A stretch of DNA of 64,000 nucleotides from NCBI RefSeq assembly GCF_000026045.1, contig NC_007426.1, forward strand, positions 2,356,001-2,420,000, in the 5' to 3' direction. This document shows positions 44,270 through 60,548 of the stretch, piece by piece (within the stretch, counting starts at the first letter, position 1; each line of letters starts with the position of its first letter). This stretch comes from Natronomonas pharaonis DSM 2160 (lineage in GTDB: Archaea > Halobacteriota > Halobacteria > Halobacteriales > Haloarculaceae). Under the pieces are notes generated by a model that made no database searches, had not been told where the DNA came from, and saw only the letters and a list, made by a program, of their open reading frames with translations. The position numbers and the translations under genes were made by a program.

Positions 44270-44488
44270 TCACATCGCCGGCGGAAGCACGATGCCGAGC
44301 AGTTGGGTCAGGATGTAGAGTCCGACCCACATCGAGACGATGATACCGATGAGGTAGCTGAGCCCCATCAGCGACGTCTTGATGGTGCGCGGTTTGCCGA
44401 GGAACCACGCGAGGACGACCGTATAGACCGGCAGTCCGATGACGGCGAAGATGACCCACGTGCCGGGGTAGATGAATTCCCACGTCAT
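44270..44488 (-). CDS. Small membrane protein of the ferredoxin/NrfD module
   Basis: 72 aa with two transmembrane helices (about 8-28 and 40-65), short loop GKPRTIKTS. The ATG overlaps the NrfD stop by one base (TAATG), so it is co-translated with it and probably an accessory subunit of the same membrane complex. Confidence 0.75.
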   Translation of the reverse strand: MTWEFIYPGTWVIFAVIGLPVYTVVLAWFLGKPRTIKTSLMGLSYLIGIIVSMWVGLYILTQLLGIVLPPAM

Positions 44489-45828
44489 TAGTCATCAGCC
44501 TCCGAATGACCGTGGCCGTCGCCACGGAGGTGTTCAATCGCGTGCAGTTCGATGACCGGGAACAGCTTGAGGACGGCCATGAAGAACAGGGTACACAGCG
44601 CGATAGTCCCTGCAACCGACGCCAGCTCGATGGGGCTGGGGAAGTAGTCGCCGGGCACGCTGTAGTACATCCCGAAGGTCGGATACTGCAGTCCCTCGAC
44701 GACGAAGAAGACCTTCTCGACGAGGGTGCCGACAAGCACCATGACACTCGCGATAATCGACCGGGTCGCGGTGAAGTACTTCTCAGGCTTGACCGCCTGT
44801 GCGAAGATGTACGCCAGCGCGATGATGACGAGGCCGATAGCGAACCAGTAGACCGGCGAGGTGATCTTCGCCATCGTGACGTACGCCTCGTCGACAGGGG
44901 CGGCGTAGACGCCGGTGATAATCTGCTGGAGCTGGAGCCACAGGAACAGCAGGCTGAACAGTCCGAGCCACAGAGTTAGCCCCTGAACGACCTTGTCAGT
45001 CAGGATGTGATACCAGTCGTAGCCGCGGCGGAGCACGGTCGACAGGATGATGACGCCGGCCAGCGCGGAGGTCAGCGCGATAGACAGGAACTGCGGCCCC
45101 TGCACAGCGCCGTCCCAGCCGGGCATCGACGGCACCAGCGCGAACAGCCACGGAATCACACCACCGTGGAGCAAGAGCGGCGCCATGACGATGATACCGA
45201 GCGCGAGCCACCAGACCATCCGTTCGATAATCTGGTCTTCCTTTTTCGTGTAGCCGATGGTCATCACCTTGTAGAGCGGCTCAAGCTTGTTCGGGAGGTC
45301 ATCCCGAAGCCGCGTCATGTCGTAACGAAGCGTCAGTGCCAGATACGTGGCGGTCATCACCATGTAGAGGGTGATGACGGTCACGTCCCACACGAGCGGC
45401 GACTGGTGGACAGTCACCGGGTATGAATCGACGATGCTCGTGACCATCCGGTCTGGTCGGCCCATGTGGACGACAATGTAGAAGCCGGCCATGCTCAGCG
45501 CGCCGAGCGTCAACAGCTCTGCGAGTCGGGCGACCGGCTGGTATTTTTTCATACCGAACAGCCGGACAGCCGCAGAGAGGATGATACCGCCGTGGGCGAT
45601 ACCGACCCACCAGATGAACGCGCCGATGTAGAGACCCCACGTGACGCCGCCACCGGAGCCCCAATCGGAGAGGTTCGTAACCGCGAGCCCACGGTCGACC
45701 TGATAGAGCCACAGGCCGATCCAAGCGAGCCCGACAACGGCCGCGAGGGCGAAGACGATGTAGAATTTCTTGCCCGTTGTCTGCATCGGACGGACGATAT
45801 CGTCCGTACTAGGTGTTTTCGAGGACAT
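44488..45828 (-). CDS. NrfD/PsrC-type membrane quinone-interacting subunit
   Basis: 446 aa with about ten transmembrane helices, of the polysulfide-reductase NrfD family that exchanges electrons with the quinone pool. Conserved pieces include FIWWVGIAHGGIILSA and YHILTDKVVQGL. It is coupled by overlapping start/stop codons to the ferredoxin-like protein upstream and the 72-aa protein downstream. No molybdopterin subunit is in this operon. Confidence 0.88.
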   Translation of the reverse strand: MSSKTPSTDDIVRPMQTTGKKFYIVFALAAVVGLAWIGLWLYQVDRGLAVTNLSDWGSGGGVTWGLYIGAFIWWVGIAHGGIILSAAVRLFGMKKYQPVARLAELLTLGALSMAGFYIVVHMGRPDRMVTSIVDSYPVTVHQSPLVWDVTVITLYMVMTATYLALTLRYDMTRLRDDLPNKLEPLYKVMTIGYTKKEDQIIERMVWWLALGIIVMAPLLLHGGVIPWLFALVPSMPGWDGAVQGPQFLSIALTSALAGVIILSTVLRRGYDWYHILTDKVVQGLTLWLGLFSLLFLWLQLQQIITGVYAAPVDEAYVTMAKITSPVYWFAIGLVIIALAYIFAQAVKPEKYFTATRSIIASVMVLVGTLVEKVFFVVEGLQYPTFGMYYSVPGDYFPSPIELASVAGTIALCTLFFMAVLKLFPVIELHAIEHLRGDGHGHSEADD

Positions 45829-47273
45829 CAGTCATCACCCGTCCCGAAGGTCAGCTGGTCGAGGTGCTCTTTGCGGTCGTCCTGAACGCCGATCTGCTCG
45901 TAGGTGACCGGGCCCTCAACCTGCTCGGCTTCGGGGCCGGGCTCGTTGCCGAGGTACGTGACGTTCGGCTGGGTGCCGAGGTCATCGAGCAGCTTGAACG
46001 CCGAGAGCTTGCCGCCCCACGGCGTGTTGGATTCGCCCCAGTCTTCGTCGATGTCGACGTTGTTGGTCTCGCCGTCTTCGTTTTCGAGGGCTTCCTCGGC
46101 GCGCTGCTCGAGGAACTGGTTGGGCCGGCTGTCGGGGTCGTTGACGTCGCCGAAGTGAATGGCGCTCATGCCGGCCGTGTCGCAGGCCTCCATACAGGCG
46201 ACGGTACCGACCTTCTCTTCGCCTTGGTGACCATCCTGCCGGGACGGACAGAAGGTACACTTGCCCATGGTACCCTGCGCTGGCCGCATGTCGTTCCACT
46301 GGCCGCGCTCGTCGTGGAGGTGGTCGTCAGTCTCTTTGAGGTGTTCCTGTCGTTCCTCATACGGCATCTCCTTGAGCTCGTCGTAGTCGTTTTCGGAGCC
46401 GGGGAGGTCCTCGTATGGAACGTCGGGTTCGCCCCACTGGAAGTAGTTGACACCGTACGGACAGGCGACCTGACAGTATCGGCAGCCGATACAGACCTCG
46501 TAGTTCGTCAACACGAGACCGTCCTTGTCGCGGGTGTGTCGGGCCCGAACCGGACAGACCTTCTCACACGGCGCGTTCGAACAGTGCTGGCAGGGCCGAA
46601 CGAGGAAGTTCTCCTGTTCTGTCTGCTCGTCCTCGTAGGTGAGGACGTACATCCAGTTTGCACCCTCCGAGGTCTGGTTCTCCTCGATACAACCCGTGAC
46701 ACACTCCAGACAGCCGTCACAGCGTTCGAGGTCAATGACCATCCCCATCTGGACATCGTCGTCGTCGCCCGTGTCCGATACGGGGTTGTCACCGTACTCG
46801 TCGTCGGTCGGGCTGGCGGCGCTCGCGACACCGCTGAAGCCGAGCGCCGCAGCACCGGCACCCATCTTCTTCATCGTGTCTCGACGGGTCTGGTCAGTGT
46901 CGGGGTCGAAGTCGGACAGCTTCCCGACAGTACCGTCCTCGCCAGTGAGCCGCTGGAAGAGACCTCCGTCGTCGGACTCCATCTCTTCCTCGTAGGCCTC
47001 GGCAGTCGGGCGGTCGTCGACATCGAACTCCTCGACGACCGCGTCGTTGTATCGGTCGTGGAACTCGGCTTCAGAGAGTTCGCCCTGAATGAGCCGCATG
47101 GCGTCTTCCGCCATCTCCATGCCGAGGTCCGCATCGTATTCGGTCTCCTCGAGCTTCTCTCGCATCTCCTCTTCCCATTCTTCACCCATGGGATGGAACG
47201 ATTCGTCCGTTGGTTCGTCGTTGCTCCCGCAACCGCAACTGTCGCGGTCGCAGGATGAGTCGTCACTGTTCAT
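45828..47273 (-). CDS. Four-cluster 4Fe-4S ferredoxin-like subunit with internal Tat motif
   Basis: 481 aa. Residues 8-15 are Cys-rich (CDRDSCGC). Residues 25-85 form an acidic helical domain. An internal twin-arginine-like stretch (TRRDTMKKMGAGAAALGF) lies at 129-146. The FeS domain (about 185-345) has four cysteine groups: CDGCLECVTGC, CQHCSNAPCEKVC, CIGCRYCQVAC and CTFC...CMEAC. It resembles DmsB/PsrB-type electron-transfer subunits with an unusual N-terminal extension. Confidence 0.85.
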   Translation of the reverse strand: MNSDDSSCDRDSCGCGSNDEPTDESFHPMGEEWEEEMREKLEETEYDADLGMEMAEDAMRLIQGELSEAEFHDRYNDAVVEEFDVDDRPTAEAYEEEMESDDGGLFQRLTGEDGTVGKLSDFDPDTDQTRRDTMKKMGAGAAALGFSGVASAASPTDDEYGDNPVSDTGDDDDVQMGMVIDLERCDGCLECVTGCIEENQTSEGANWMYVLTYEDEQTEQENFLVRPCQHCSNAPCEKVCPVRARHTRDKDGLVLTNYEVCIGCRYCQVACPYGVNYFQWGEPDVPYEDLPGSENDYDELKEMPYEERQEHLKETDDHLHDERGQWNDMRPAQGTMGKCTFCPSRQDGHQGEEKVGTVACMEACDTAGMSAIHFGDVNDPDSRPNQFLEQRAEEALENEDGETNNVDIDEDWGESNTPWGGKLSAFKLLDDLGTQPNVTYLGNEPGPEAEQVEGPVTYEQIGVQDDRKEHLDQLTFGTGDD

Positions 47274-48945: not shown

Positions 48946-49668
48946 TCAAACAACATCGACGACTTCGGGTGTCGCCATCCGCGCCAGCACGATAGCCTCG
49001 ACATCGGCTCTGTCAGCAATCGCGTCGGCGATAGCGCGGGCGGTCCGTTCGTCGGCCGCGTCGTCAACCTTGTTGATAAGGGGGATGGCGCGTGCGCCGT
49101 CCGGGATATCCTTCAGACCGCCAGCCTCGTCGGCGACGACCGAGCCCACCGTCTCCGGAGTTATTTCGTCGCCGATATCGATGTCGGCCAGCGCGGCGAC
49201 TCGCTCCGGCCGGTGGACGTGTGTCTCATCCAGCGGCTTCCCGACCGCGTGGGCGCTGACGACCGGAACGACCGTTGCTGTGCTGGCCGGCAGCTGTGGC
49301 TCTCGGTTGTTCGGCGCTTTGAACTCTCGGGTGCGCGCGCCGTCTGCTTTCACCAGTACAGGACCGTCGTGGGCGTCGGCGACCGCATCGACAATTTCGG
49401 GGCCGTAGCCGCGGTAGCGGTCGCTGCGGTCGTGGCCGGCGACGAGCCCGAGCGGGTACGGCGGGGCAGCGTCGAGTTCGGCGACCGGGTCGTCGGTGAC
49501 TCGGACCGACGCAACCTCGCGGTCGAAGATGGGTATCCGAACCGTTGCCGTCACGATGGGCTGGTCGAGCAACCCTGCCAGCGCATACAGCGTCGTCTTC
49601 TTGCCGCCGGCACCGACCAGACAGGTGACACCGTCGGCGGCCGAAAGCGCCGCTACGATGTCGGTCAC
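48946..49668 (-). CDS. yqeC: YqeC-family P-loop protein, putative Mo/Se hydroxylase accessory factor
   Basis: 240 aa. The P-loop-like LVGAGGKKTTLYALAG at residues 17-32 and the central VKADGARTREFKAPNNREPQLP are YqeC hallmarks. In bacteria the family accompanies selenium-dependent molybdenum hydroxylases; its exact reaction is unknown. Here its start overlaps the TorD-like chaperone stop (ATGA), tying it to the formate-dehydrogenase-like operon. Confidence 0.85.
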   Translation of the reverse strand: MTDIVAALSAADGVTCLVGAGGKKTTLYALAGLLDQPIVTATVRIPIFDREVASVRVTDDPVAELDAAPPYPLGLVAGHDRSDRYRGYGPEIVDAVADAHDGPVLVKADGARTREFKAPNNREPQLPASTATVVPVVSAHAVGKPLDETHVHRPERVAALADIDIGDEITPETVGSVVADEAGGLKDIPDGARAIPLINKVDDAADERTARAIADAIADRADVEAIVLARMATPEVVDVV

Positions 49669-50306
49669 GGTTCAGTTCGCGGCGTCCCCGTGTCCAGATA
49701 GCTCGGTGCGAGGTCGTCGAGTTCGAGCCCGAGGAGATAGGCGTCGGCCTCGACGGCCCCCTCGGCGAGCCATCCGACTGCCTCGTAGAAGGTGTCGTCA
49801 GTGAGCTCCTTGATGTCGGCAGCGGCGGCCGGCAGCCACCAGCCGTGCGCCGAGAGGAACGCCCGCCGGTAGTCGTCGGCCCCGTCGCGGGCGAGCATTT
49901 CGAGGGCGGCGAGTTCGACCGCCACGTGGTCGGGTTCCTCACGGAGATGCTCGGAATGCTCGATGCCGAGGTCGCGGTAGGTCTGTTTGACCGCCGCCAA
50001 TGGCTCGCCCAGATAGTCGTCGGCATACCACGATTCGTGGGCCTGCATCTTCGGCCGTGGGCCGACAAAGAGCCGGGTGTGAACCCGCTTGAGGCGGTCG
50101 GCTTCTTCAGCCGGGTCACTGACAGTCGACTGCCACTTCGAGAGCAGTCGGTAGCCGTTGGCGAGCGCTTGCGGTGACGCGTCAGTCGGGAGCTGTTCAC
50201 TTGCGAGTCGGTCGACGGCCGCCTCGCTCGGTGGGTCCGCGAGGACCCCCGAGAGGAAGGCATACAGGTCGGCGAGGTCGGCCGCCGTGTCGGCTGGTTG
50301 TGTCAT
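49665..50306 (-). CDS. TorD/DmsD-family molybdoenzyme chaperone
   Basis: 213 aa, all-helical TorD-like protein (LADLYAFLSGVLADPPSEAA; RLFVGPRPKMQAHESWYADD; YLGEPLAAVKQTYRDLGI). It should bind the alpha subunit's Tat leader and help cofactor loading before export. It lies 55 bp after the NrfD-type gene and overlaps yqeC. Confidence 0.9.
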   Translation of the reverse strand: MTQPADTAADLADLYAFLSGVLADPPSEAAVDRLASEQLPTDASPQALANGYRLLSKWQSTVSDPAEEADRLKRVHTRLFVGPRPKMQAHESWYADDYLGEPLAAVKQTYRDLGIEHSEHLREEPDHVAVELAALEMLARDGADDYRRAFLSAHGWWLPAAAADIKELTDDTFYEAVGWLAEGAVEADAYLLGLELDDLAPSYLDTGTPRTEP

Positions 50307-50361: not shown

Positions 50362-51465
50362 CTACATCGGGAGCGGCAGCGGCGTGAACTCGGCGGCGAG
50401 GATGTAAACGAGCGCGAGCGCTATTTTGCCGGCGACCGCGAGAGCGCCGGCGAAGACGTACGATGCCGCGGTGACATCATCGGGGAGCGCTCCGGACCGC
50501 TGTGCGAGCGCACTGCCGCCGAGGAAGATGGCAGGCAGGACCATCCCGCCGACGATAGCGACGCCGATAAAGAGGCCAGCGTACGTCGTCAGCATGTTGT
50601 TGACTGCCTCTGCCGCGGCCGGGGCCTGTCCGGGCAGCATCGTCACCGTCGCAAGAACGGCCAGCAGGGAGCCCACGAGCAGCCCGGAGGCCGCAAGGGC
50701 ATACGACTGGAGCGTCCGCCCCGGCGAGCGGGTCGCAAGCGCTGTCAGCCCGACGGCCGCCGCCAGCCCGGCACCGAGGCCGCTGAGTATCTGAACGGGA
50801 ATCAGGAACGTTTTGTCCCACAACGGCACCCGGTTGGTGGCACCGGAGCCGAGCGCCATCGCCGAGTACAGCAAGACACCGGCGGCGAGTACGCCAAAGA
50901 ACGCACCGAGGCCGAGCCGTATCTTCTCGGACGGCCGGGTGATATCGGCCAGCCGGTCAAGCAGGTCAAGCAGACCGACACGGTTGGCGACGCCGCGGAC
51001 GCCACCGCCGACAGTCCGTCCGCCGGTCGCTGTCTCCGCCGTACCGCCGTCGGAGGCAATATCCGTGCCGCCGTCGGCGACCGCCGGTCGATTGGGCCGC
51101 TCCTTCCCGAAGGCCGTCCAGCCGAACATCAACAGCGCGCCAAGGCCGAACCCGGCGATGAGGTACGACCCGATAGCCATCCACGAGCCGAGGTTCGACA
51201 TCGTAAACGGGAGCGCCATCGCCCGGAACGGCGTCGCGAGGTGAGACAGCATAATCGGCGGGCTGATAGCGATGACGAGCAGGCCGGTCAGATAGCCGTA
51301 TTTGGCGAGCTGGCCGTGCTCGACTGACTCCCGTCGCTTCGAGAGCACGTCAGCGACGTAGGCGGTCAGGTACGCGCCGCCGGCAAGGCCGATGAGCGCG
51401 ACGTATTGGGCGATTTTCCAGTCCCACTGCGTGTACGGTTCGTTGAAGATTATTTCGAGTGGCAT
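50362..51465 (-). CDS. NrfD-type membrane anchor of the formate-dehydrogenase-like complex
   Basis: 367 aa with about eight to nine transmembrane helices (QYVALIGLAGGAYLTAYVAD near the N-terminus; FTMSNLGSWMAIGSYLIAG). NrfD/PsrC family, transfers electrons between the FeS subunit and menaquinone. Its start is seven bases after the FeS subunit stop. A soluble loop near residues 125-165 is Gly/Thr-rich and looks like a lineage-specific insertion. Confidence 0.9.
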   Translation of the reverse strand: MPLEIIFNEPYTQWDWKIAQYVALIGLAGGAYLTAYVADVLSKRRESVEHGQLAKYGYLTGLLVIAISPPIMLSHLATPFRAMALPFTMSNLGSWMAIGSYLIAGFGLGALLMFGWTAFGKERPNRPAVADGGTDIASDGGTAETATGGRTVGGGVRGVANRVGLLDLLDRLADITRPSEKIRLGLGAFFGVLAAGVLLYSAMALGSGATNRVPLWDKTFLIPVQILSGLGAGLAAAVGLTALATRSPGRTLQSYALAASGLLVGSLLAVLATVTMLPGQAPAAAEAVNNMLTTYAGLFIGVAIVGGMVLPAIFLGGSALAQRSGALPDDVTAASYVFAGALAVAGKIALALVYILAAEFTPLPLPM

Positions 51466-51472
51466 GGGTGAA

Positions 51473-52072
51473 TCACTCCGATATCACGCTGTCGGCGTCG
51501 TCCCCGAAGACGATGCGGGCGGCCTCCGGTTCGAACGGCGTCGAGGTGCCCTCTTCGTCGAGCTTCTCGGAGAGTTCATCCGGCGTGCCGAAAAGCAGCG
51601 CGTCGGTCGGACACTCCGAGGAGCAGGCCGGTTCGAGGTCTTCTTCCTGTCGGGGCTCGCAGGTAGTACACTTGTCCATCAGCCCGTTGCCCCGTGCGCC
51701 GAGGGGGTTCATCTCGTCGGCTTCCGGGACCTCGGCGTCGGGGTACTGCGGCGCGCCGAACGGACAGCCGACGCCGCAGTAGTGGCAGCCGATACAGAGG
51801 TCGCCCGATACCCGCACGGTGCCGTCGTCGCGGAACAGGAGGGCGTCGGTCGGACAGACATCGACACAAGGGGCCTCGGCGCAGTTGTAACACTGCATCG
51901 GCTTTTGGGCCTCGTCTTCGGTGCCATGTTCGAGGGCGACGACCTCGATGCGGTTCGTCTCCGGCGGGAGGTCCCACGTTCGCTGGCAGGCGACCTCGCA
52001 GGCGCCGCAGTCGATACAGGACTCCCAGTTGGGGATGACTCGGGCCGTGTCGTTGGATTGGTTGGTGCTCAT
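51473..52072 (-). CDS. Four-cluster FeS subunit (DmsB/FdhB-like)
   Basis: 199 aa, with four cysteine groups: CIDCGACEVACQRTWD, CYNCAEAPCVDVCP, CIGCHYCGVGCP and CTTCEPRQ...CSSECP. It links the molybdopterin subunit to the membrane anchor. No signal peptide is seen; export probably occurs as a complex with the Tat-carrying alpha subunit. Its start lies six bases after the alpha-subunit stop. Confidence 0.93.
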   Translation of the reverse strand: MSTNQSNDTARVIPNWESCIDCGACEVACQRTWDLPPETNRIEVVALEHGTEDEAQKPMQCYNCAEAPCVDVCPTDALLFRDDGTVRVSGDLCIGCHYCGVGCPFGAPQYPDAEVPEADEMNPLGARGNGLMDKCTTCEPRQEEDLEPACSSECPTDALLFGTPDELSEKLDEEGTSTPFEPEAARIVFGDDADSVISE

Positions 52073-52078
52073 TGTCGG

Positions 52079-55018
52079 TTACCGTTTGTGTCGGTTCATA
52101 CGCTGTTCCTGCCAGTCGAGCTGCGTCTGGGACAGCTCCGGAATCTCATCGTCGTCGGCGGTCCGGACGCTACAGAGCGTCGTCTTCGTCTCCTGCATCT
52201 GCGTTTCGACGTCGTAGGCCGGTGCAGTACCGGCGTTGATGGTTTCGCCGATGACGAGCGGTTCGAGCCCATCGGGGACGTTGCCCGTCACTTTCTCGCC
52301 TTCGAGGATACCGCTCCAGTGGAACGGGGCAAAGGCGTGGTCCGGTGCGACCCGCTCGGATGGCCGAGCCTGAACCATCATCTCCGCATGCGGCGTCTCG
52401 GTGACTATCCAGTCACCCTCCTCGACACCGAGTTCGTCCGCGACCGTCGGATGGATCTCCAGGTACATCATCGGCGCCCGCGAAGCGGTCCCCAGCGTAC
52501 TCCGGGTCTTCGCTCCGGCACCGGTGTGTTCGACCTGTCGGCCGGAGGTGAGCACGAGGTCGTAGTCCTCGACGGCATCGATGTTGTCCTGCTGGACCTG
52601 GTAGTTGTCAAGTTCGACCCGCCAGTGGTCCTCAACCCGGTCGTTGCAGGGATACTCCTCGACAAGGTCCGGCCGCGGCGAAACGGCCGGCTCCCGGTGA
52701 ACCGGGTACTCGTCGGTGAGATTCCACGCCTTCATTCGTGCCCGGCCGCGCCCCCACGGCGAGTCGGGCTGTGGGTTGTCGAAGTCCTCGTAGTCAGACA
52801 CGTCGATGTCGTGGCCCCGCTCGGCGAGTGCTTCGGCGGTGTCGAGTACCGACGTGTCTTCGCGTTCGGCGTACTCCATCGGGAGTGTCTTTGCGGCTGG
52901 GTTCCCGGACTCCGGAAGAACCGTCGCGAAGCCGGGATACTGTGGGACACCCTCGATTTCGCCGTCCCACCACTCCGGCTCATAGGAGTCTCTGAGCTGC
53001 CAGTTGTCATCCGGGCTTCCCCACCAGCGAGCGCGGAAGTCCATACCACCCTCCGAGGGTGGCTTCGAGGCGTCGTAGAGAATCGGCGTCCCGGGGTGGT
53101 CCTCGTGCCAACAGGGCCACGGCAGCCCGTAGTACTCGCCGTGGAACTCGTGGGCCTCGTCGACCTCGGCCTGGAGGTCCTCGACACTAAACAGGTCGGC
53201 GTTTTCCTGGTGGGCCTTCAGCCGTTCCGGCGTCTGGCCGACGTAGCCGACCGAGCGGGTCCCGAGGTTCCACTCGCGGGTGACGTCTTCGACCTCGTCG
53301 TAGTCGAAGTGTTCGCCGAGGCCGAGGCGTTCGCCGAACTCACACATCAGCTCCCAGTCTTTTCGGGCGTTGTGTCGGGGCGTCGCCGCCTGGCTCCGCC
53401 ACTGAATCTGTCGGCCGGTGTTTGTCGCGCTGCCGGCCTCTTCGAGATTCGTCGCCGCCGGCAGCAGGTAGGCGTCGGTATCCATCTCGGCGAGTTCGGC
53501 AACCTGGTTCGGGAAGATGTCGATGTTGACGATGAAGTCGAGTTCGTTCACCGCCTCGCGGACCTTCCCGTACTCGCTGAGCGAGGCGAGCCCGTGGCCC
53601 CAGAAGATAGCCGCTTGGAGCGGGTCCGGCTGGTAAATTTCCCACTCGTCGTCGAGAACACCCTCGAACCAGCGGGCGACGGTGAATCCGTCTTTTTCCA
53701 TCAGCTCTCGGGAGTGGAACCGTTCGCGGACCTCCTCGTAGCTGATTTCGCCAGGGGTGCTTTCGGTCTCCGACCAGACACTCGCCCAGTGGCGCCACGC
53801 GCTCTCGTCGAGCCCGTAGTAGCCCGGCAGTGTACTCGAATCGACGCCGAGGTCGGTCGCGCCCTGCACGTTGTCGTGGCCACGGAAAATCGGTGTGCCA
53901 CCGGCCGACTGGGCGGCGTGGCCGAGCGCGAGGTTGAGCATCGCGTAGGCACGGACGTTGCCGTTGGCGTTGTTGTGCTGGGTGCCGCCCATCGCCCACT
54001 CGACGCAACTGACGTCGGCGTCGGCGAGTTCCTCGGCGAGTTCCATGAGGTCCGATTCGGAGGTGCCACAGATGTCCGAGACGGTTTCGAGGTCGTAATC
54101 GACCAACACGTCGTCACGGAACTCCGCCCAGTCCATCACACGGCTGTCGATGAACGCCTCGTCGTGGGCGTCGAGATTGAAGACGATGTGGTACAGCAGC
54201 CCGTAGATGAACGCCACGTCCGTCCCCGACCGGAACTGATAGAATCCGTCGGCGGCGGCCGCCGTTTCGGTGTACCGCGGCTCGGCGACGATGTGCTTGC
54301 CGCCGCGCTGTTGGGCAACCTGGAAATGCTGCCAAGCGACCGGGTGGCTCTCGATGGGGTTGTGGCCGATAATCAGGTTGACATCGACGTTGCGCATGTC
54401 GTTGGAGTTGTTCGTCATCGCGCCCACCCCCCACGTGTTCGCGATGCCGGTCACGGTCGTCGAGTGACAGATACGCGCCTGGTGGTCGATGTTGTTCGTC
54501 CCGTACAGCGAGGCAAGCTTGCGGATGAGATATGCGGCCTCGTTGCTGTGACAGGCCGAGCCGACCCACATCGTCGCGTGTGGCCCCGTCTCCTCGTGGA
54601 TATCGTTGAGCCGGCCGCAGATTTCGTCGAGAATCTCGTCCCAGTCCATCCGCACCCAGTCGCCGTCCTCCAGCTTCATCGGCTCCTTGAGGCGCTGTTC
54701 GGAGTTCTCCGTCTGCGTGAGCGACGACCCCTTCGAACAGAGCCCACCCTGATTGATGGGGTTGTCCTCCCACGCCTCCTGGCCGACGATGGTGTCGTCT
54801 TCGACGGCCATCTTCAGTCCACACCCGACAGAGCAGTGGGTACAGACCGTCTTGACGAGCTCTTCGCCCGTATAAGGCGGTCCGTCGTCACCCGCCGCGT
54901 CGTCCTGTGCCCCACCGCGTTCGAGTAGCGTTCGTCCCCCGACTGCTGCAGCGAGTGTCCCTGCGGCCCCCGCCTTGAGGAACCCCCGCCGGTCAAGGTC
55001 GAGTGTTGAACGTGACAT
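52079..55018 (-). CDS. Formate dehydrogenase-like molybdopterin oxidoreductase, alpha subunit
   Basis: 979 aa. A Tat signal (DRRGFLKAGAAGTL) opens the protein, then the 4Fe-4S motif CTHCSVGCGL...GGLCSKG (about 58-95). The segment HSNEAAYLIRKLASLYGTNN, DHQARICHSTTVTGI and GHNPIESHPVAWQH closely follows formate dehydrogenases; the metal ligand is a cysteine (TGT codon) in RICHS, not selenocysteine. The C-terminal molybdopterin-dinucleotide domain is present. It heads a five-gene operon with FeS, NrfD, TorD and YqeC. Formate is the most likely substrate, but another DMSO-reductase-family substrate is possible. Confidence 0.88.
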   Translation of the reverse strand: MSRSTLDLDRRGFLKAGAAGTLAAAVGGRTLLERGGAQDDAAGDDGPPYTGEELVKTVCTHCSVGCGLKMAVEDDTIVGQEAWEDNPINQGGLCSKGSSLTQTENSEQRLKEPMKLEDGDWVRMDWDEILDEICGRLNDIHEETGPHATMWVGSACHSNEAAYLIRKLASLYGTNNIDHQARICHSTTVTGIANTWGVGAMTNNSNDMRNVDVNLIIGHNPIESHPVAWQHFQVAQQRGGKHIVAEPRYTETAAAADGFYQFRSGTDVAFIYGLLYHIVFNLDAHDEAFIDSRVMDWAEFRDDVLVDYDLETVSDICGTSESDLMELAEELADADVSCVEWAMGGTQHNNANGNVRAYAMLNLALGHAAQSAGGTPIFRGHDNVQGATDLGVDSSTLPGYYGLDESAWRHWASVWSETESTPGEISYEEVRERFHSRELMEKDGFTVARWFEGVLDDEWEIYQPDPLQAAIFWGHGLASLSEYGKVREAVNELDFIVNIDIFPNQVAELAEMDTDAYLLPAATNLEEAGSATNTGRQIQWRSQAATPRHNARKDWELMCEFGERLGLGEHFDYDEVEDVTREWNLGTRSVGYVGQTPERLKAHQENADLFSVEDLQAEVDEAHEFHGEYYGLPWPCWHEDHPGTPILYDASKPPSEGGMDFRARWWGSPDDNWQLRDSYEPEWWDGEIEGVPQYPGFATVLPESGNPAAKTLPMEYAEREDTSVLDTAEALAERGHDIDVSDYEDFDNPQPDSPWGRGRARMKAWNLTDEYPVHREPAVSPRPDLVEEYPCNDRVEDHWRVELDNYQVQQDNIDAVEDYDLVLTSGRQVEHTGAGAKTRSTLGTASRAPMMYLEIHPTVADELGVEEGDWIVTETPHAEMMVQARPSERVAPDHAFAPFHWSGILEGEKVTGNVPDGLEPLVIGETINAGTAPAYDVETQMQETKTTLCSVRTADDDEIPELSQTQLDWQEQRMNRHKR

Positions 55019-55065
55019 AGGCCACCATATGATACTATTTACAATTAATATACCGGTTCTTTACA

Positions 55066-55085
55066 TTCGATTGCAAGCAATTGAA
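55066..55085. promoter_or_regulatory. Inverted repeat between the formate-dehydrogenase-like and AOR-like genes
   Basis: TTCGATTGC and GCAATTGAA are 9-nt arms (one mismatch) around AA, in the 148-bp divergent region. AT-rich TATA-like elements for the minus-strand operon (near 55042-55052) lie beside it, so it may be an operator. Confidence 0.4.
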
Positions 55086-55166
55086 GGTCTTTTTATACGT
55101 GCTTTGCTCCGAGCTCCGAAACCACACCGTGACATTTAATCCCATGAGCGCCCCTATCGGAGTACA

Positions 55167-56936
55167 ATGCCCATCGCAGACCGGATGCTCCGGGTCGACC
55201 TCTCCGCCGGGCGCGTGGCGAGCGAGGCTGTTCCCGACGCGTGGCTCGAAAAGTACGTCGGCGGGAAGGGGCTCGGAGCCCGGTATCTCTATGAGATGGA
55301 ACCGGGCGTCGAGCCGACAGGGCCGGCAAACCGCCTGCTGTTTATGGTCGGACCGCTGACCGGCTACACACCCGGCGACCAGCGGTACGCGGCGCTGACG
55401 AAATCGCCGCTGACCGGGGCGTTCCTCGATTCCTACGGCGGCGGTACGTTCCCCGCTCGGCTCGCTGGCTCGCTCGGCCCACATCTCGGCATCGAGATAA
55501 CGGGCGCGGCCGACGAGCCGGTCGTCCTCGTCATCGAGGACGGCGAGGCGACTGTCGAGCCGGCGACATCGCTGTGGGGCCGCGACGCCGAGGCGACGTG
55601 TGAGTCGTTCCCGGACGCCGCCGTCGCCTGCATCGGCCCCGCGGGCGAACACGGCGTCCAGTATGCGACTATCGCTTCGGACGGCGGCGACCACCACGCC
55701 GGCCGCGGCGGGGCGGGAACGGTGATGGGAAGCAAGAATCTGAAAGCCGTCGTCGCCCGTGGGCCGGCCCCGGATGGCTTCGAGAAGCTCCGAGACCGCT
55801 ACGAGGCCGCGTTCAAAAACAGCAACACTGGCCAATGGCTCGCGGCCAGCGAAACGCTCGAAACCGTCGATTTCGCCGACGCCGTCGGCGTGCTCCCGAC
55901 CCGTGGCTGGCAGGACGCCGAGTTCGACGGGGCCGAGGATATCGGCATCGAGACGGCACGCGAACGCGCACACGGTCGCGAGCGGCCCGACGACCCCGTC
56001 CCCGGCGGGTTCCGTGTCGACAGCGACGCCGGCGAGAGCGTTCCTCGGGGGGCAACGCCCATCGTTTTGGGCGCGGGGCTCGGTATCGACGACTTCGACG
56101 CCGTCGCCACGCTCGGGACGGTCTGTGACCGGTTGGCGCTCGATGTCATCACCGCCGGCAACGCCGTCGCGTGGGCCGTCCGCGCCAGCCAAGAGGGACT
56201 CATCGACCGGTCGATTTCGTTCGGTGATGAAGCGGCCGCCCGCGACCTCATCGAGGAAATCGCCGAGCGGTCGACGCCGCTCGGCGACACGCTCGCCGAC
56301 GGCGTCGATGCCGCCGCCGAGCGGTACGGTGGCGAGGGGCTGATTCCGACAGTCAAGGGCATGGAGCTGTCGTCCTACGACCCGAGAGGAGCGGCGGCGA
56401 TGGCGCTTGCCTACGCAACGAGCGACCGCGGTGGCTGTCACCGCCGCGCTCGCCCCGTTGAGGCAGAGCCGATAGCGGGCGGCGACTGGAGCACCGAGCG
56501 GCGCGCAGCGACCGTCGTCGACGAGCAGGACCGCCGGGCAGTGCTGTGGAGTCTCATCGCCGATGACTTCCTCGAAGAGGTGTTCAGAGCCGACCTCGGA
56601 GCCGAGTGGCTGGAGGCCCTCGGCTACGACCACGACCCGGAGGACCTCGAAGCGGTCGGCGAGCGCGTCTGGACGCTGGTGCGGCTGTTCAACGTCCGCG
56701 AAGGCTTTTGCCGCGAGGACGACGAGCTACCGGCCGTGTTGACCGAACCCCCGGAGTCGGGCGGTGAGGGTATCGACCCGGACGCCTTCGATGCGCTCTT
56801 GGACCGCTACTACCGCCAGCGTGGCTGGGACCAACGTGGCCGGCCGACGGCCGAGTTGCTCCGCCGGCTCGACATCGCCGACCTGCCCGATTCGGCAACG
56901 CCGGTCCCAGCCGCGGCCGGAGGTGGTGACCGATGA
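55167..56936 (+). CDS. Aldehyde:ferredoxin oxidoreductase-family protein lacking cluster cysteines
   Basis: 589 aa of the tungstopterin AOR family: GGKGLGARYLY, YAALTKSPLTGAFLDSYGGG, and RGGAGTVMGSKNLKAVVA are well conserved. The segment that normally holds CxxCPxxC reads RERPDDPVPGGFR at 271-283, and the later region that usually supplies the fourth ligand (LxxSLGLCKF-type) reads LWSLIADDFLEEVF. The 4Fe-4S cluster therefore seems lost while the pterin-site motifs remain. DRGGCHRRA near 423 is kept. It starts about 30 bp after a TATA-like CATTTAATCC and overlaps the next gene. Confidence 0.88.
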   Translation: MPIADRMLRVDLSAGRVASEAVPDAWLEKYVGGKGLGARYLYEMEPGVEPTGPANRLLFMVGPLTGYTPGDQRYAALTKSPLTGAFLDSYGGGTFPARLAGSLGPHLGIEITGAADEPVVLVIEDGEATVEPATSLWGRDAEATCESFPDAAVACIGPAGEHGVQYATIASDGGDHHAGRGGAGTVMGSKNLKAVVARGPAPDGFEKLRDRYEAAFKNSNTGQWLAASETLETVDFADAVGVLPTRGWQDAEFDGAEDIGIETARERAHGRERPDDPVPGGFRVDSDAGESVPRGATPIVLGAGLGIDDFDAVATLGTVCDRLALDVITAGNAVAWAVRASQEGLIDRSISFGDEAAARDLIEEIAERSTPLGDTLADGVDAAAERYGGEGLIPTVKGMELSSYDPRGAAAMALAYATSDRGGCHRRARPVEAEPIAGGDWSTERRAATVVDEQDRRAVLWSLIADDFLEEVFRADLGAEWLEALGYDHDPEDLEAVGERVWTLVRLFNVREGFCREDDELPAVLTEPPESGGEGIDPDAFDALLDRYYRQRGWDQRGRPTAELLRRLDIADLPDSATPVPAAAGGGDR

Positions 56937-57649
56937 CCGAGCGCATCGACCTCGACGACATGGCCGTCGAGGAAAAAGCGGAAGACCCGGACGGCAACTA
57001 CGGTGACTGGCTCTGGCGGGGCGAAGGGGACCCTGACGACGAACCCAGCCCTGGCTGGACGGATGGTGATACCGAAGCGACGAGCGAAAGCGAGGAATCA
57101 ACCGGCGGCGGCCCGGACCGGCAGGCCGCTCCCGGCGTTCCGAGCACCGGCGGGGGCGGCCCGGTCGGCGTCCCGGAGGACCGGGGCGGTGCCGGCGGCG
57201 GAACGTCCGGCAGCGCCGCCGAAAACACGCCGGGCGGCGGCATCGAACAAGCCGGAACGGCCGAGACTCACGATGTCGATATCGACGATATGACCATGGC
57301 GCTTACCTACAAGGCCGCCCACCACTTCACCGAGCCACAGCGGGTCTTCGCGGAGGCCAGAGAGTGGGCCGACTGGGTCGGGGTCGTCGGCGAGGTCTCG
57401 ACGCCCGCCATCCGGAAGTTCCAGCGCGAGGCCGGCGTCGAACTGGACTTTTTCGGCGGCTCCGAGTCCGGGCCCGACGAGCGGCTTGCCGACATTGACG
57501 CCGAGTCGATGTTCTACGCCGAGCGGATGGTCGTCGTCGGCGTCGACGGCGACGAGTGGATAGCTGACGCGGCGGACTGGGAGTTCGTCCCGCTCGAACA
57601 CGCCGCCGAAAAGGCCGATTGGGAGCTCAAAGAGGAGTTCCTCGACTAG
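56933..57649 (+). CDS. Hypothetical protein with Gly-rich linker, coupled to AOR-like gene
   Basis: 238 aa. An acidic N-terminus (MTERIDLDDMAVEE), a Gly/Ser/Thr/Pro-rich linker (about 45-110), then a folded domain (MTMALTYKAAHHFTEPQRVF; FQREAGVELDFFGGSESGPD) reminiscent of a haloarchaeal domain of unknown function (DUF7124-like, tentative). The ATG overlaps the AOR stop (ATGA), suggesting a shared role. Confidence 0.75.
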   Translation: MTERIDLDDMAVEEKAEDPDGNYGDWLWRGEGDPDDEPSPGWTDGDTEATSESEESTGGGPDRQAAPGVPSTGGGGPVGVPEDRGGAGGGTSGSAAENTPGGGIEQAGTAETHDVDIDDMTMALTYKAAHHFTEPQRVFAEAREWADWVGVVGEVSTPAIRKFQREAGVELDFFGGSESGPDERLADIDAESMFYAERMVVVGVDGDEWIADAADWEFVPLEHAAEKADWELKEEFLD

Positions 57650-58332: not shown

Positions 58333-60468
58333 CTAAGAGCCGCTATGGAGCAGTTCCGTCCGGCACTGCGGGCAGTAGTGGATGATGCTTTCTTCGGCCT
58401 CCGGCGCGAGGTCTGCGACCACGTCGCCGATTCGTTCCTCGATAGCTTCGGCGGTGGCTTCGCTCGTGTACTCCCGACCACAGCCGGCACAGGTCTGCAT
58501 CTCTCCCTCCGCGACGAGCGTCCACGCCGGGTCCGGACCCGTCTGCTGTTCGGGCAGTAACCCGAGGTCAAGCCCGGCGTCGACGGTGATGACATCCTCG
58601 ACGCAGACATCGGCACAGAGCCCGCAGTTGACACATCGCTCGTGGTTGAACTCCAACCCGGAGCCGGTGCGGCGGAGTGCATCCGTCGGACAGAACCGCG
58701 AGCAGGTCGGCGTCAACGTACAGCCCTCGGCGACATCGACGACGCCGAACGTCTCCAACCCACGGATGTGGTCGCGGTCGGGGTCGACGTGTTCGAGAAT
58801 CGTCCGGACGCTTTCGAGCGCCCACGCGTGGGTGTCGAAGGCGGGCGCATCGCGGTCCGGGTCGTCAATGCGGCCGGTCGCCTCGTGGTCGCCGGCGGGG
58901 ACGGGCGACTCGTCGAGGCCGACGACGGCGAACTGCGAAAGCGCCTCGACGAACGCCCCCGGGTCGTCGGGGTCGGGCGAAAAGAAGGCGACCCGTTCGC
59001 CGAGCCCGAGGTCGGTCGTTGCCGTGTTCAGCCGGTCGACGAGTTCGGCTTTCGGGTCGGGGCCGGAGTGCAGACAGTGGCCGCCGCAGCCGACGATGGC
59101 GACGCCATCCGCGCCCGCTGCCAGTGCGTGCAGGACGTGTGCCTCGCCGACCGTGTCGGTACAGTTGACGTCGACCGGCAGTATCGGCGGGTACTCGATG
59201 TCGTCCGTGCCGGCGGCCGCACGCCGACCGTACTCCGAGAGCGCGGCCTCGGCCCGCTCCGAACAGACGAAGGCGACAATCGGTGAGTCGATACCGGGCG
59301 AGTCGCCGCCGAGCAGCCCCGAGACGAGGCCGCCGTCATCACCGGGCGTCAGGAGTGCCTCGACCTCGCGGGCGATTCGTTCGTTCGACGGCTCTCGGAG
59401 CATCGTCGCGCCGGTCGGGCAGGCGCTGGTACAGGCACCACAGTCCTGACAGCTGTCGCGGTGAAACCCGACCTCGTCGATGGCCGTTCGTTCGACGGCC
59501 CCGTGCGGACAGGCGTCGACGCAGGCGTTACAGCCCATTTCGCCGTGGTTGCCGGACGCACAGATATCCATCTCTAGGTCGAGATAGTCGGGGCTCTCGA
59601 AGCCGCCGAGCAGCCGCTCGACGGTGTCGATGGTGAGGCTGTCGATGGGGGCCGTATGGAAGCCCCGCTGCCCACCGACGGTACCGCTGTCGCCGTCGGG
59701 ATAGACAATCTGGTCGCACTCGACGGTGCGTTCGACGCCGTCCATCTCGATAGCGTCAGTCGGACAGACATCGACCCACTCGCCGCCCTCGGCGTCGGGG
59801 GCGATGTCGACCGGGCGTCGGGTCACCTTCCCGTCCGGCCCCTCGTGGACGCATTTCATACACGAGATGCAGTCGTCGGTGACCCGCGAGCGGACGGTCA
59901 CCTCGAAGTCGCCGTAGGTTCCGGAAACGTCGACAACCCGGCCGCGCTCGACCGATACGTCATCGAGGTCGGCGTCAACGTCGGTGAGTTCCGCGCCATT
60001 AGCAAAGAGCGTCACCGTCGCCGGGCCGGCGATTGCGGCGGCGACCTCGGGCGCGCCGACGACGACGACCTCGTCGCCGGCCTGATGTATCGAGCTCCGC
60101 GGCATCGGCGTCTCCTGCCGGCCAGCGTTAGCGGCGTTGAGCAGGCGGGCGGTTTTGTCGGTCGCCGTCGGCTCGTCGTGGACCCAGCCGGCCCCCTCGC
60201 GCTGGTCGACGAACTCGATTTCCGCCGGGTGAACGCCGTGTTCCTCGGCGACGCCACGGAGCTTCTCCTGCATCTTCGGCTCCGGACAGGTGACGAGCAG
60301 TTCGCTGAGGTCGTACTCGTCGATGACGTGTTCGAACGCGCCGATTTTGTCCTGACAGAGCAGGCTCGAACTGGCCGCGACATCGACATCCTCGACGTCC
60401 TCGCGGGCGGCTTCGAGGTCGATGTCGCAGGTGTCGGCGCACGAACAGAGAAAGGCACCCGTGCTCAT
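58333..60468 (-). CDS. HdrA/MvhD-like multi-cluster FeS protein
   Basis: 711 aa. Residues 1-112 match the N-domain of heterodisulfide reductase HdrA (GAFLCSCADTCDIDLEAARE; IEFVDQREGAGWVH). Residues 133-175 retain only a stub of the Rossmann strand (EVVVVGAPEVAAAIAGPATV) without GxGxxG. Ferredoxin clusters follow at 200-240, 303-356 and 583-630, an MvhD-like domain (hydrogenase delta subunit) at 396-510 and a C-terminal zinc ribbon at 660-703. It may accept or split electrons among soluble FeS carriers, but without FAD, bifurcation is unlikely. Starts at 60468 and 60477 are both possible. Confidence 0.85.
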   Translation of the reverse strand: MSTGAFLCSCADTCDIDLEAAREDVEDVDVAASSSLLCQDKIGAFEHVIDEYDLSELLVTCPEPKMQEKLRGVAEEHGVHPAEIEFVDQREGAGWVHDEPTATDKTARLLNAANAGRQETPMPRSSIHQAGDEVVVVGAPEVAAAIAGPATVTLFANGAELTDVDADLDDVSVERGRVVDVSGTYGDFEVTVRSRVTDDCISCMKCVHEGPDGKVTRRPVDIAPDAEGGEWVDVCPTDAIEMDGVERTVECDQIVYPDGDSGTVGGQRGFHTAPIDSLTIDTVERLLGGFESPDYLDLEMDICASGNHGEMGCNACVDACPHGAVERTAIDEVGFHRDSCQDCGACTSACPTGATMLREPSNERIAREVEALLTPGDDGGLVSGLLGGDSPGIDSPIVAFVCSERAEAALSEYGRRAAAGTDDIEYPPILPVDVNCTDTVGEAHVLHALAAGADGVAIVGCGGHCLHSGPDPKAELVDRLNTATTDLGLGERVAFFSPDPDDPGAFVEALSQFAVVGLDESPVPAGDHEATGRIDDPDRDAPAFDTHAWALESVRTILEHVDPDRDHIRGLETFGVVDVAEGCTLTPTCSRFCPTDALRRTGSGLEFNHERCVNCGLCADVCVEDVITVDAGLDLGLLPEQQTGPDPAWTLVAEGEMQTCAGCGREYTSEATAEAIEERIGDVVADLAPEAEESIIHYCPQCRTELLHSGS

Positions 60469-60548
60469 TATCCCCATTCATCCATCGGACGCACCTAAAC
60501 CTGTCGCGGAGGCCCGTCCTTTGCCGGGGGGTTGATATTGACAAAGAG

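Follow-up and report, generated by a model that had tools for sequence, protein, structure and literature searches.

The window, the whole stretch of 64,000 nucleotides that was analysed, encodes an AOR-family protein that has lost the ligands of its [4Fe-4S] cluster and the catalytic residue Glu313. These losses are conserved throughout one haloarchaeal clade of single origin, whose genomes nearly always encode YqeC and a formate dehydrogenase (FDH) as well, often at the same locus, and no match to FdhD was found in the 243 haloarchaeal genomes searched. We tentatively read this protein, referred to below as the ligand-less AOR, as an AOR-derived pseudo-enzyme that would handle the W- or Mo-pterin cofactor for FDH together with YqeC, a reading that we consider plausible while still somewhat short of probable.

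The gene (positions 55167 to 56936, + strand) runs from ATG to TGA and specifies 589 amino acids. Both domains of the AOR/WOR family (PF02730 and PF01314) are present over the full length of the protein, which matches AFOR_N at 5.7e-62 (209 bits; cut-off 29.8) and AFOR_C at 8.6e-94 (315 bits; cut-off 27). The initial annotation held that residues 271-283 (55977 to 56015, + strand) read RERPDDPVPGGFR where the CxxCPxxC cluster loop is expected, and the sequence confirms this. Alignment to Pyrococcus AOR (1aor) places no four cysteines in cluster-binding positions: C288, C291, and C295 correspond to D275, V278, and F282, and the fourth ligand, C494, corresponds to D466. The same picture emerged from 87 distinct aligned rows, comprising the window protein and 86 orthologues at least 56% identical to it from haloarchaeal contigs and genomes. 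CxxCxxxC is absent from all 87 rows, the C494 position is Asp in 86, and the remaining ligand positions are occupied by D/E, V/S/I, and F; thus, the loss of the cluster ligands and of the later cysteine, both claimed earlier for the single protein, extends to the whole family. Measured between the conserved landmarks RE, GF, and PRG, the segment that replaces the cluster loop is 18-65 residues long, is free of cysteine in 86 of the 87 rows, and contains no conserved histidine. The conserved cysteines C155, C320, and C424 all lie outside this loop; the Pyrococcus AOR counterparts of C320 and C424 are C337 and C447, neither of which binds the cluster. Hence the ligand set C288/C291/C295/C494, on which catalytic AORs hold their single [4Fe-4S] cluster, has no counterpart here. 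Sequencing error and pseudogene formation are ruled out by the identical loss in the 86 orthologues and by dN/dS values of 0.10-0.28 between orthologue pairs, which imply that the ligand-less AOR is under purifying selection. In-frame stop codons were reported for some matches, many of which extend to the C terminus of the query.

The active site is altered at two further places. Residues 292-296 (56040 to 56054, + strand) read VPRGA in place of GPEYE, with loss of Glu313 (A, G, or S in 87 of 87 rows) and gain of a near-invariant Arg (E311 to R in 86 of 87). Glu313 is the proposed proton acceptor in aldehyde oxidation (PMC12096430), and recent papers treat both the [4Fe-4S] ligands and the second shell, Glu313 included, as nearly constant in aldehyde-oxidising AOR/WOR members (PMC13328260, PMC12096430). 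It is the only member missing from the second-shell set of catalytic AORs (Thr243, Glu313, Tyr427, and His448), and it is kept by the sister group described below and by other haloarchaeal AOR paralogues. The second pterin motif, D489xxGLC-L, is replaced by WSLIADD at residues 461-467 (56547 to 56567, + strand; WSLIADDF-like in the family), which puts Asp466 at the C494 position. Loss of D489 is not specific to the ligand-less AOR, because the cluster-bearing sister group lacks this residue as well. By contrast with these losses, R186, T243, D343, Y427, and H448 are identical in 87 of 87 rows and R76 is kept in 80 of 87, so that the earlier statement that the tungstopterin motifs are retained stands for these residues and does not stand for Glu313 or for the second pterin motif. 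An alignment of 47 rows further shows R180, G181, G182, G184, T230, Y404, H425, and R427 to be invariant. Near-invariant residues newly acquired by the family are R294, R426, and D466/D467; the alignment suggests that R294 and R426 add positive charge to what was the active site, as might suit an anionic form of the cofactor or an anionic substrate.

An AlphaFold2 model built from the 47-row alignment (pLDDT 81, pTM 0.85) adopts the AOR fold, with whole-length matches to solved AORs such as 1aor (Z 39.8) and 9mqx (Z 42.1) and Z of 39-42 across 535-560 residues for the four best chains. Loops 239-261, 277-280, 292-307, 395-403, and 422-430 are of low confidence; they take in the PRG loop, some of the segment where the cluster loop was lost, and stretches at or beside Y404 and H425. 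Therefore, the model gives no proof of an intact pocket.

The nearest relatives of the ligand-less AOR are seven haloarchaeal sister proteins (L102-L108; ≈44% identical), which share with it H176/H177, Y90, R427, and the absence of D489, and which unlike it retain CxxCxxxC, C494, and GPEYE. CxxCxxxC is also kept by the further haloarchaeal AOR paralogues (16 rows, with one gene represented twice) and at all 20 loci fetched among the nearest AOR matches, 18 of them outside the haloarchaeal order and two of them distant paralogues inside it. This result argues against cluster-less relatives beyond the order among those 18 loci. In a tree of 88 rows, made by a quick method with SH-aLRT support and no bootstrap, the ligand-less proteins form one clade (SH-aLRT 100) and the cluster state changes once; thus, multiple independent losses are not needed. 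These data show reuse of the AOR fold in a conserved clade that lacks the cluster ligands and Glu313. We found neither a cluster-less AOR clade nor a link between YqeC and FDH in haloarchaea described in the literature searched, with most subscription journals outside the search.

In the window, the ligand-less AOR gene is divergent from the gene for an FDH-like alpha subunit (52079 to 55018, - strand; molybdopterin Pfam domains and a Tat-type N terminus), from which it is separated by a 148-bp intergenic region (55019 to 55166). The FDH operon continues on the minus strand with a multi-cysteine ferredoxin-like subunit (51473 to 52072), FdhB/DmsB-like by reading, an NrfD-type membrane subunit (50362 to 51465; PF03916, 4.6e-16), a TorD/DmsD-type molybdoenzyme chaperone (49665 to 50306; PF02613, 6.2e-18; TorD model at 1.6e-07, below its cut-off), and, as its last gene, YqeC (48946 to 49668; PF19842, 6.9e-29), which overlaps torD by 4 bases. 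On the other side, a DUF7124 protein with a Gly-rich linker (56933 to 57649, + strand; PF23439, 1.8e-37) overlaps the ligand-less AOR stop codon in an ATGA. Coupling to this Gly-rich protein, proposed in the initial annotation, therefore holds in the window; elsewhere, DUF7124 adjoins just 23 of 68 loci. A PF23439 search found the domain in 241 of 243 haloarchaeal genomes, some with an extra copy beside the ligand-less AOR, and we rejected DUF7124 as a general main partner on account of this near-universal presence and the 23 loci. The recurring partners across genomes are instead YqeC and FDH: among the same 68 loci, FDH alpha is a neighbour at 39, YqeC at 37, and TorD at 23, and a ferredoxin-like subunit gene adjoins FDH alpha at several. 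Gene orientation varies among loci. At ≈15 loci, mostly of Halorubrum, the flanks examined contain no FDH and the genes for the ligand-less AOR and YqeC diverge, and in Haloarcula the two genes are co-directional.

Co-occurrence was determined in 243 haloarchaeal genomes of the order, with the ligand-less AOR called at E ≤ 1e-100 and three genomes having only the sister form removed from the calls. It is present in 125 genomes, about half, and YqeC is present in 156. YqeC occurs in 124 of the 125 genomes with the ligand-less AOR compared to 32 of the 118 without it (Fisher P = 2.5e-37). Because genomes are not independent, the test was repeated within 19 mixed genera, labelled by hand from the search outputs, where the counts were 64/65 and 20/49 (permutation P ≈ 1e-5). 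The assembly of the sole ligand-less AOR genome that lacks YqeC is 77% complete. FDH, scored by TIGR01591 at 1e-150 or by the window FDH at 1e-100, occurs in 177 genomes, among them 123 of the 125 that have the ligand-less AOR; moreover, 22 of 23 such genomes that fell below the first FDH threshold have a TIGR01591 match over its cut-off. Of the two genomes with no FDH call, one (G226) is 70% complete and contains FDH fragments, and the other (G237) has an FDH-like match at 5.1e-68. The distributions are thus nested, the ligand-less AOR within YqeC and YqeC within FDH, with 30 genomes having YqeC and FDH without the ligand-less AOR and 24 having FDH alone. These 30 genomes imply that the ligand-less AOR is not obligatory for FDH maturation. 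Some of them encode FDHs nested among those of ligand-less AOR genomes, and since YqeC and related FDHs operate in many genomes that lack the protein, any role it has would have to be conditional or replaceable. The data do not support a general tracking of YqeC by AORs, as YqeC is absent from the three sister-only genomes (0/3) and from some genomes whose only AOR matches are more distant (e.g., G001 and G005).

The window YqeC is an equivalog match to TIGR03172 (168.8 bits; cut-off 73.05), and an invariant GAGGKK in the YqeC alignment corresponds to a VGAGGKK-like P-loop motif. Its model (pLDDT 92) resembles SIMIBI GTPases at Z of 10-13, including FtsY/FlhF (11-13) and two proteins that serve metallocentres, MeaB (11.3) and UreG (10.5), a likeness of fold only, as the Foldseek E-values are all above 0.001. 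YqeC is a probable metallocentre GTPase, suspected of acting in cofactor maturation. It has been proposed to assist selenium-dependent molybdenum hydroxylases (SDMH), with a plasmid copy noted in Haloarcula marismortui (PMC2276186), and a yqeC deletion in C. difficile gave no clear phenotype (PMC11448449). Compared with the SDMH arrangement of selD, yqeB, and the molybdenum hydroxylase, the neighbours of yqeC in the window are torD, nrfD, and the FDH genes.

The window FDH alpha subunit scores 434 bits against TIGR01591, below the curated cut-off of 666, and is FDH-like by its motifs ARICH (ARxCH) and RGHDNVQG (RGxxNVQG). TIGR01591 matches at 1e-150 occur in 166 of the 243 haloarchaeal genomes, 164 of them over the cut-off. 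In the FDH tree (L122-L141), the haloarchaeal enzymes fall into types separated by deep divergence, and those adjacent to the ligand-less AOR are spread over several strongly separated clades. In a clade of 745-820 aa FDHs, all sampled rows come from genomes without the ligand-less AOR, and 11 of 13 also lack YqeC. FdhD, the usual sulfurtransferase of the FDH cofactor, is needed for FDH maturation in E. coli. It is likewise required in Methylorubrum (PMC13197769). However, PF02634 detected FdhD in 0 of the 243 haloarchaeal genomes, in a search that was positive for other archaea as controls and that a very divergent FdhD could escape; the genome of the window likewise gave no match. Haloarchaea thus have FDHs yet no detectable FdhD, and for the sulfuration or insertion of their cofactor the ligand-less AOR and YqeC offer specific candidates that can be deleted.

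Retention of cofactor-site residues, loss of the electron exit and of Glu313, and co-occurrence with YqeC and FDH together make an accessory of the FDH cofactor the best reading. The ligand-less AOR would keep most of the tungstopterin pocket, minus the cluster through which electrons exit and the glutamate of aldehyde oxidation, and would most likely bind a W- or Mo-bis-pterin cofactor without turning over and be inert toward aldehydes. With the GTPase-like YqeC, it would hold, modify, or hand over cofactor for haloarchaeal FDHs, a step set in a lineage without an FdhD match. The earlier suggestion that loss of the cluster calls for another electron acceptor or a non-redox role is fully supported by these observations. 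A more specific version, in which a haloarchaeal AOR was converted once into a scaffold or carrier on which, with YqeC, the W/Mo-bis-pterin of FDH is matured in NifEN-like fashion, strikes us as rather unlikely as it stands; if true, the protein would be an enzyme turned into a NifEN-like assembly platform for a tungsten or molybdenum pterin.

A serious rival, though in our estimate also rather unlikely, is that the ligand-less AOR is still an enzyme, using W-bis-MPT in a cluster-independent reaction of formate or formaldehyde metabolism beside FDH, for example by feeding it formate; the reaction might be non-redox, or redox with an acceptor docking directly on the pterin. Such an activity would fit the invariance of the aldehyde-site lining (T243, Y427, and H448), the presence of FDH in 123 of 125 genomes, and a pocket that R294, R426, and D466/D467 suggest was remodelled and made more cationic, and that could take an anionic substrate. 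However, the proposed proton acceptor Glu313 (PMC12096430) is lost in every row, and neither the near-strict dependence on YqeC nor the pairs of the ligand-less AOR and YqeC without FDH nearby would be explained. It is unlikely, in our view, that the protein is a cofactor-free structural or regulatory pseudo-enzyme, such as an assembly factor or subunit whose AOR fold serves to bind FDH, TorD, or YqeC. The low confidence of the pocket-closing loops in the model and the long, variable cluster loop of some genera, up to 65 residues, are consistent with this proposal; nevertheless, few residues in the family are as conserved as those of the cofactor site, which would be unexpected without a cofactor. 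Finally, an ordinary AOR electron carrier, with a cluster held by other ligands or supplied by a partner protein, is very improbable, since even if Asp466 at the C494 position recalls the three Cys and one Asp of Pyrococcus WOR5/ASOR (PMC12096430), the other three ligands are replaced in a loop without conserved Cys or His and C155, C320, and C424 lie elsewhere.

Functional analogues of the proposed accessory role are FdhD and NifEN-type scaffolds, which hold or modify a metallocofactor for another enzyme; homology to them is not claimed. Compared to characterised AOR/WOR members (Pyrococcus AOR, 1aor; FOR, 1b25; Haloferax WOR83, 9q1t), the ligand-less AOR shares the fold along its entire length (Z 39.8 with 1aor), both Pfam domains, R76, R186, T243, Y427, and H448, and it differs in having no cluster cysteines, no Glu313, a replaced second pterin motif, and a link to YqeC and FDH. 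It recalls the YdhV and BamB clades, AOR/WOR members reported to be without the usual second-shell residues (PMC12096430), and its model matches BamB (4z3w) at Z 35.0. In YdhV and BamB a Cys coordinates the metal (PMC12096430); what the ligand-less AOR lacks is the cluster ligands.

Several other genes recur at these loci. An HdrA/FlpD-like polyferredoxin, encoded in the window at 58333 to 60477 (- strand; FlpD and several Fer4 Pfam matches), is a neighbour at 21 of the 68 loci and, lying beside FDH at many, is perhaps an electron partner of FDH. Downstream of the ligand-less AOR and DUF7124 genes at L047, L055, L063, L068, and similar loci, a repeated module pairs TorD with HdrA/FlpD, in divergent orientation to an FDH alpha gene of another type. 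A family of ≈190-210 aa with no Pfam or NCBIfam match adjoins a 700-aa FDH type at ≈12 loci (e.g., L101:9888-10517 and L066:12015-12614, minus strand). Near the FDH operon, the window also contains a second pair of membrane-subunit and ferredoxin-like genes (44488 to 47273, - strand), NrfD/DmsB-like by reading.
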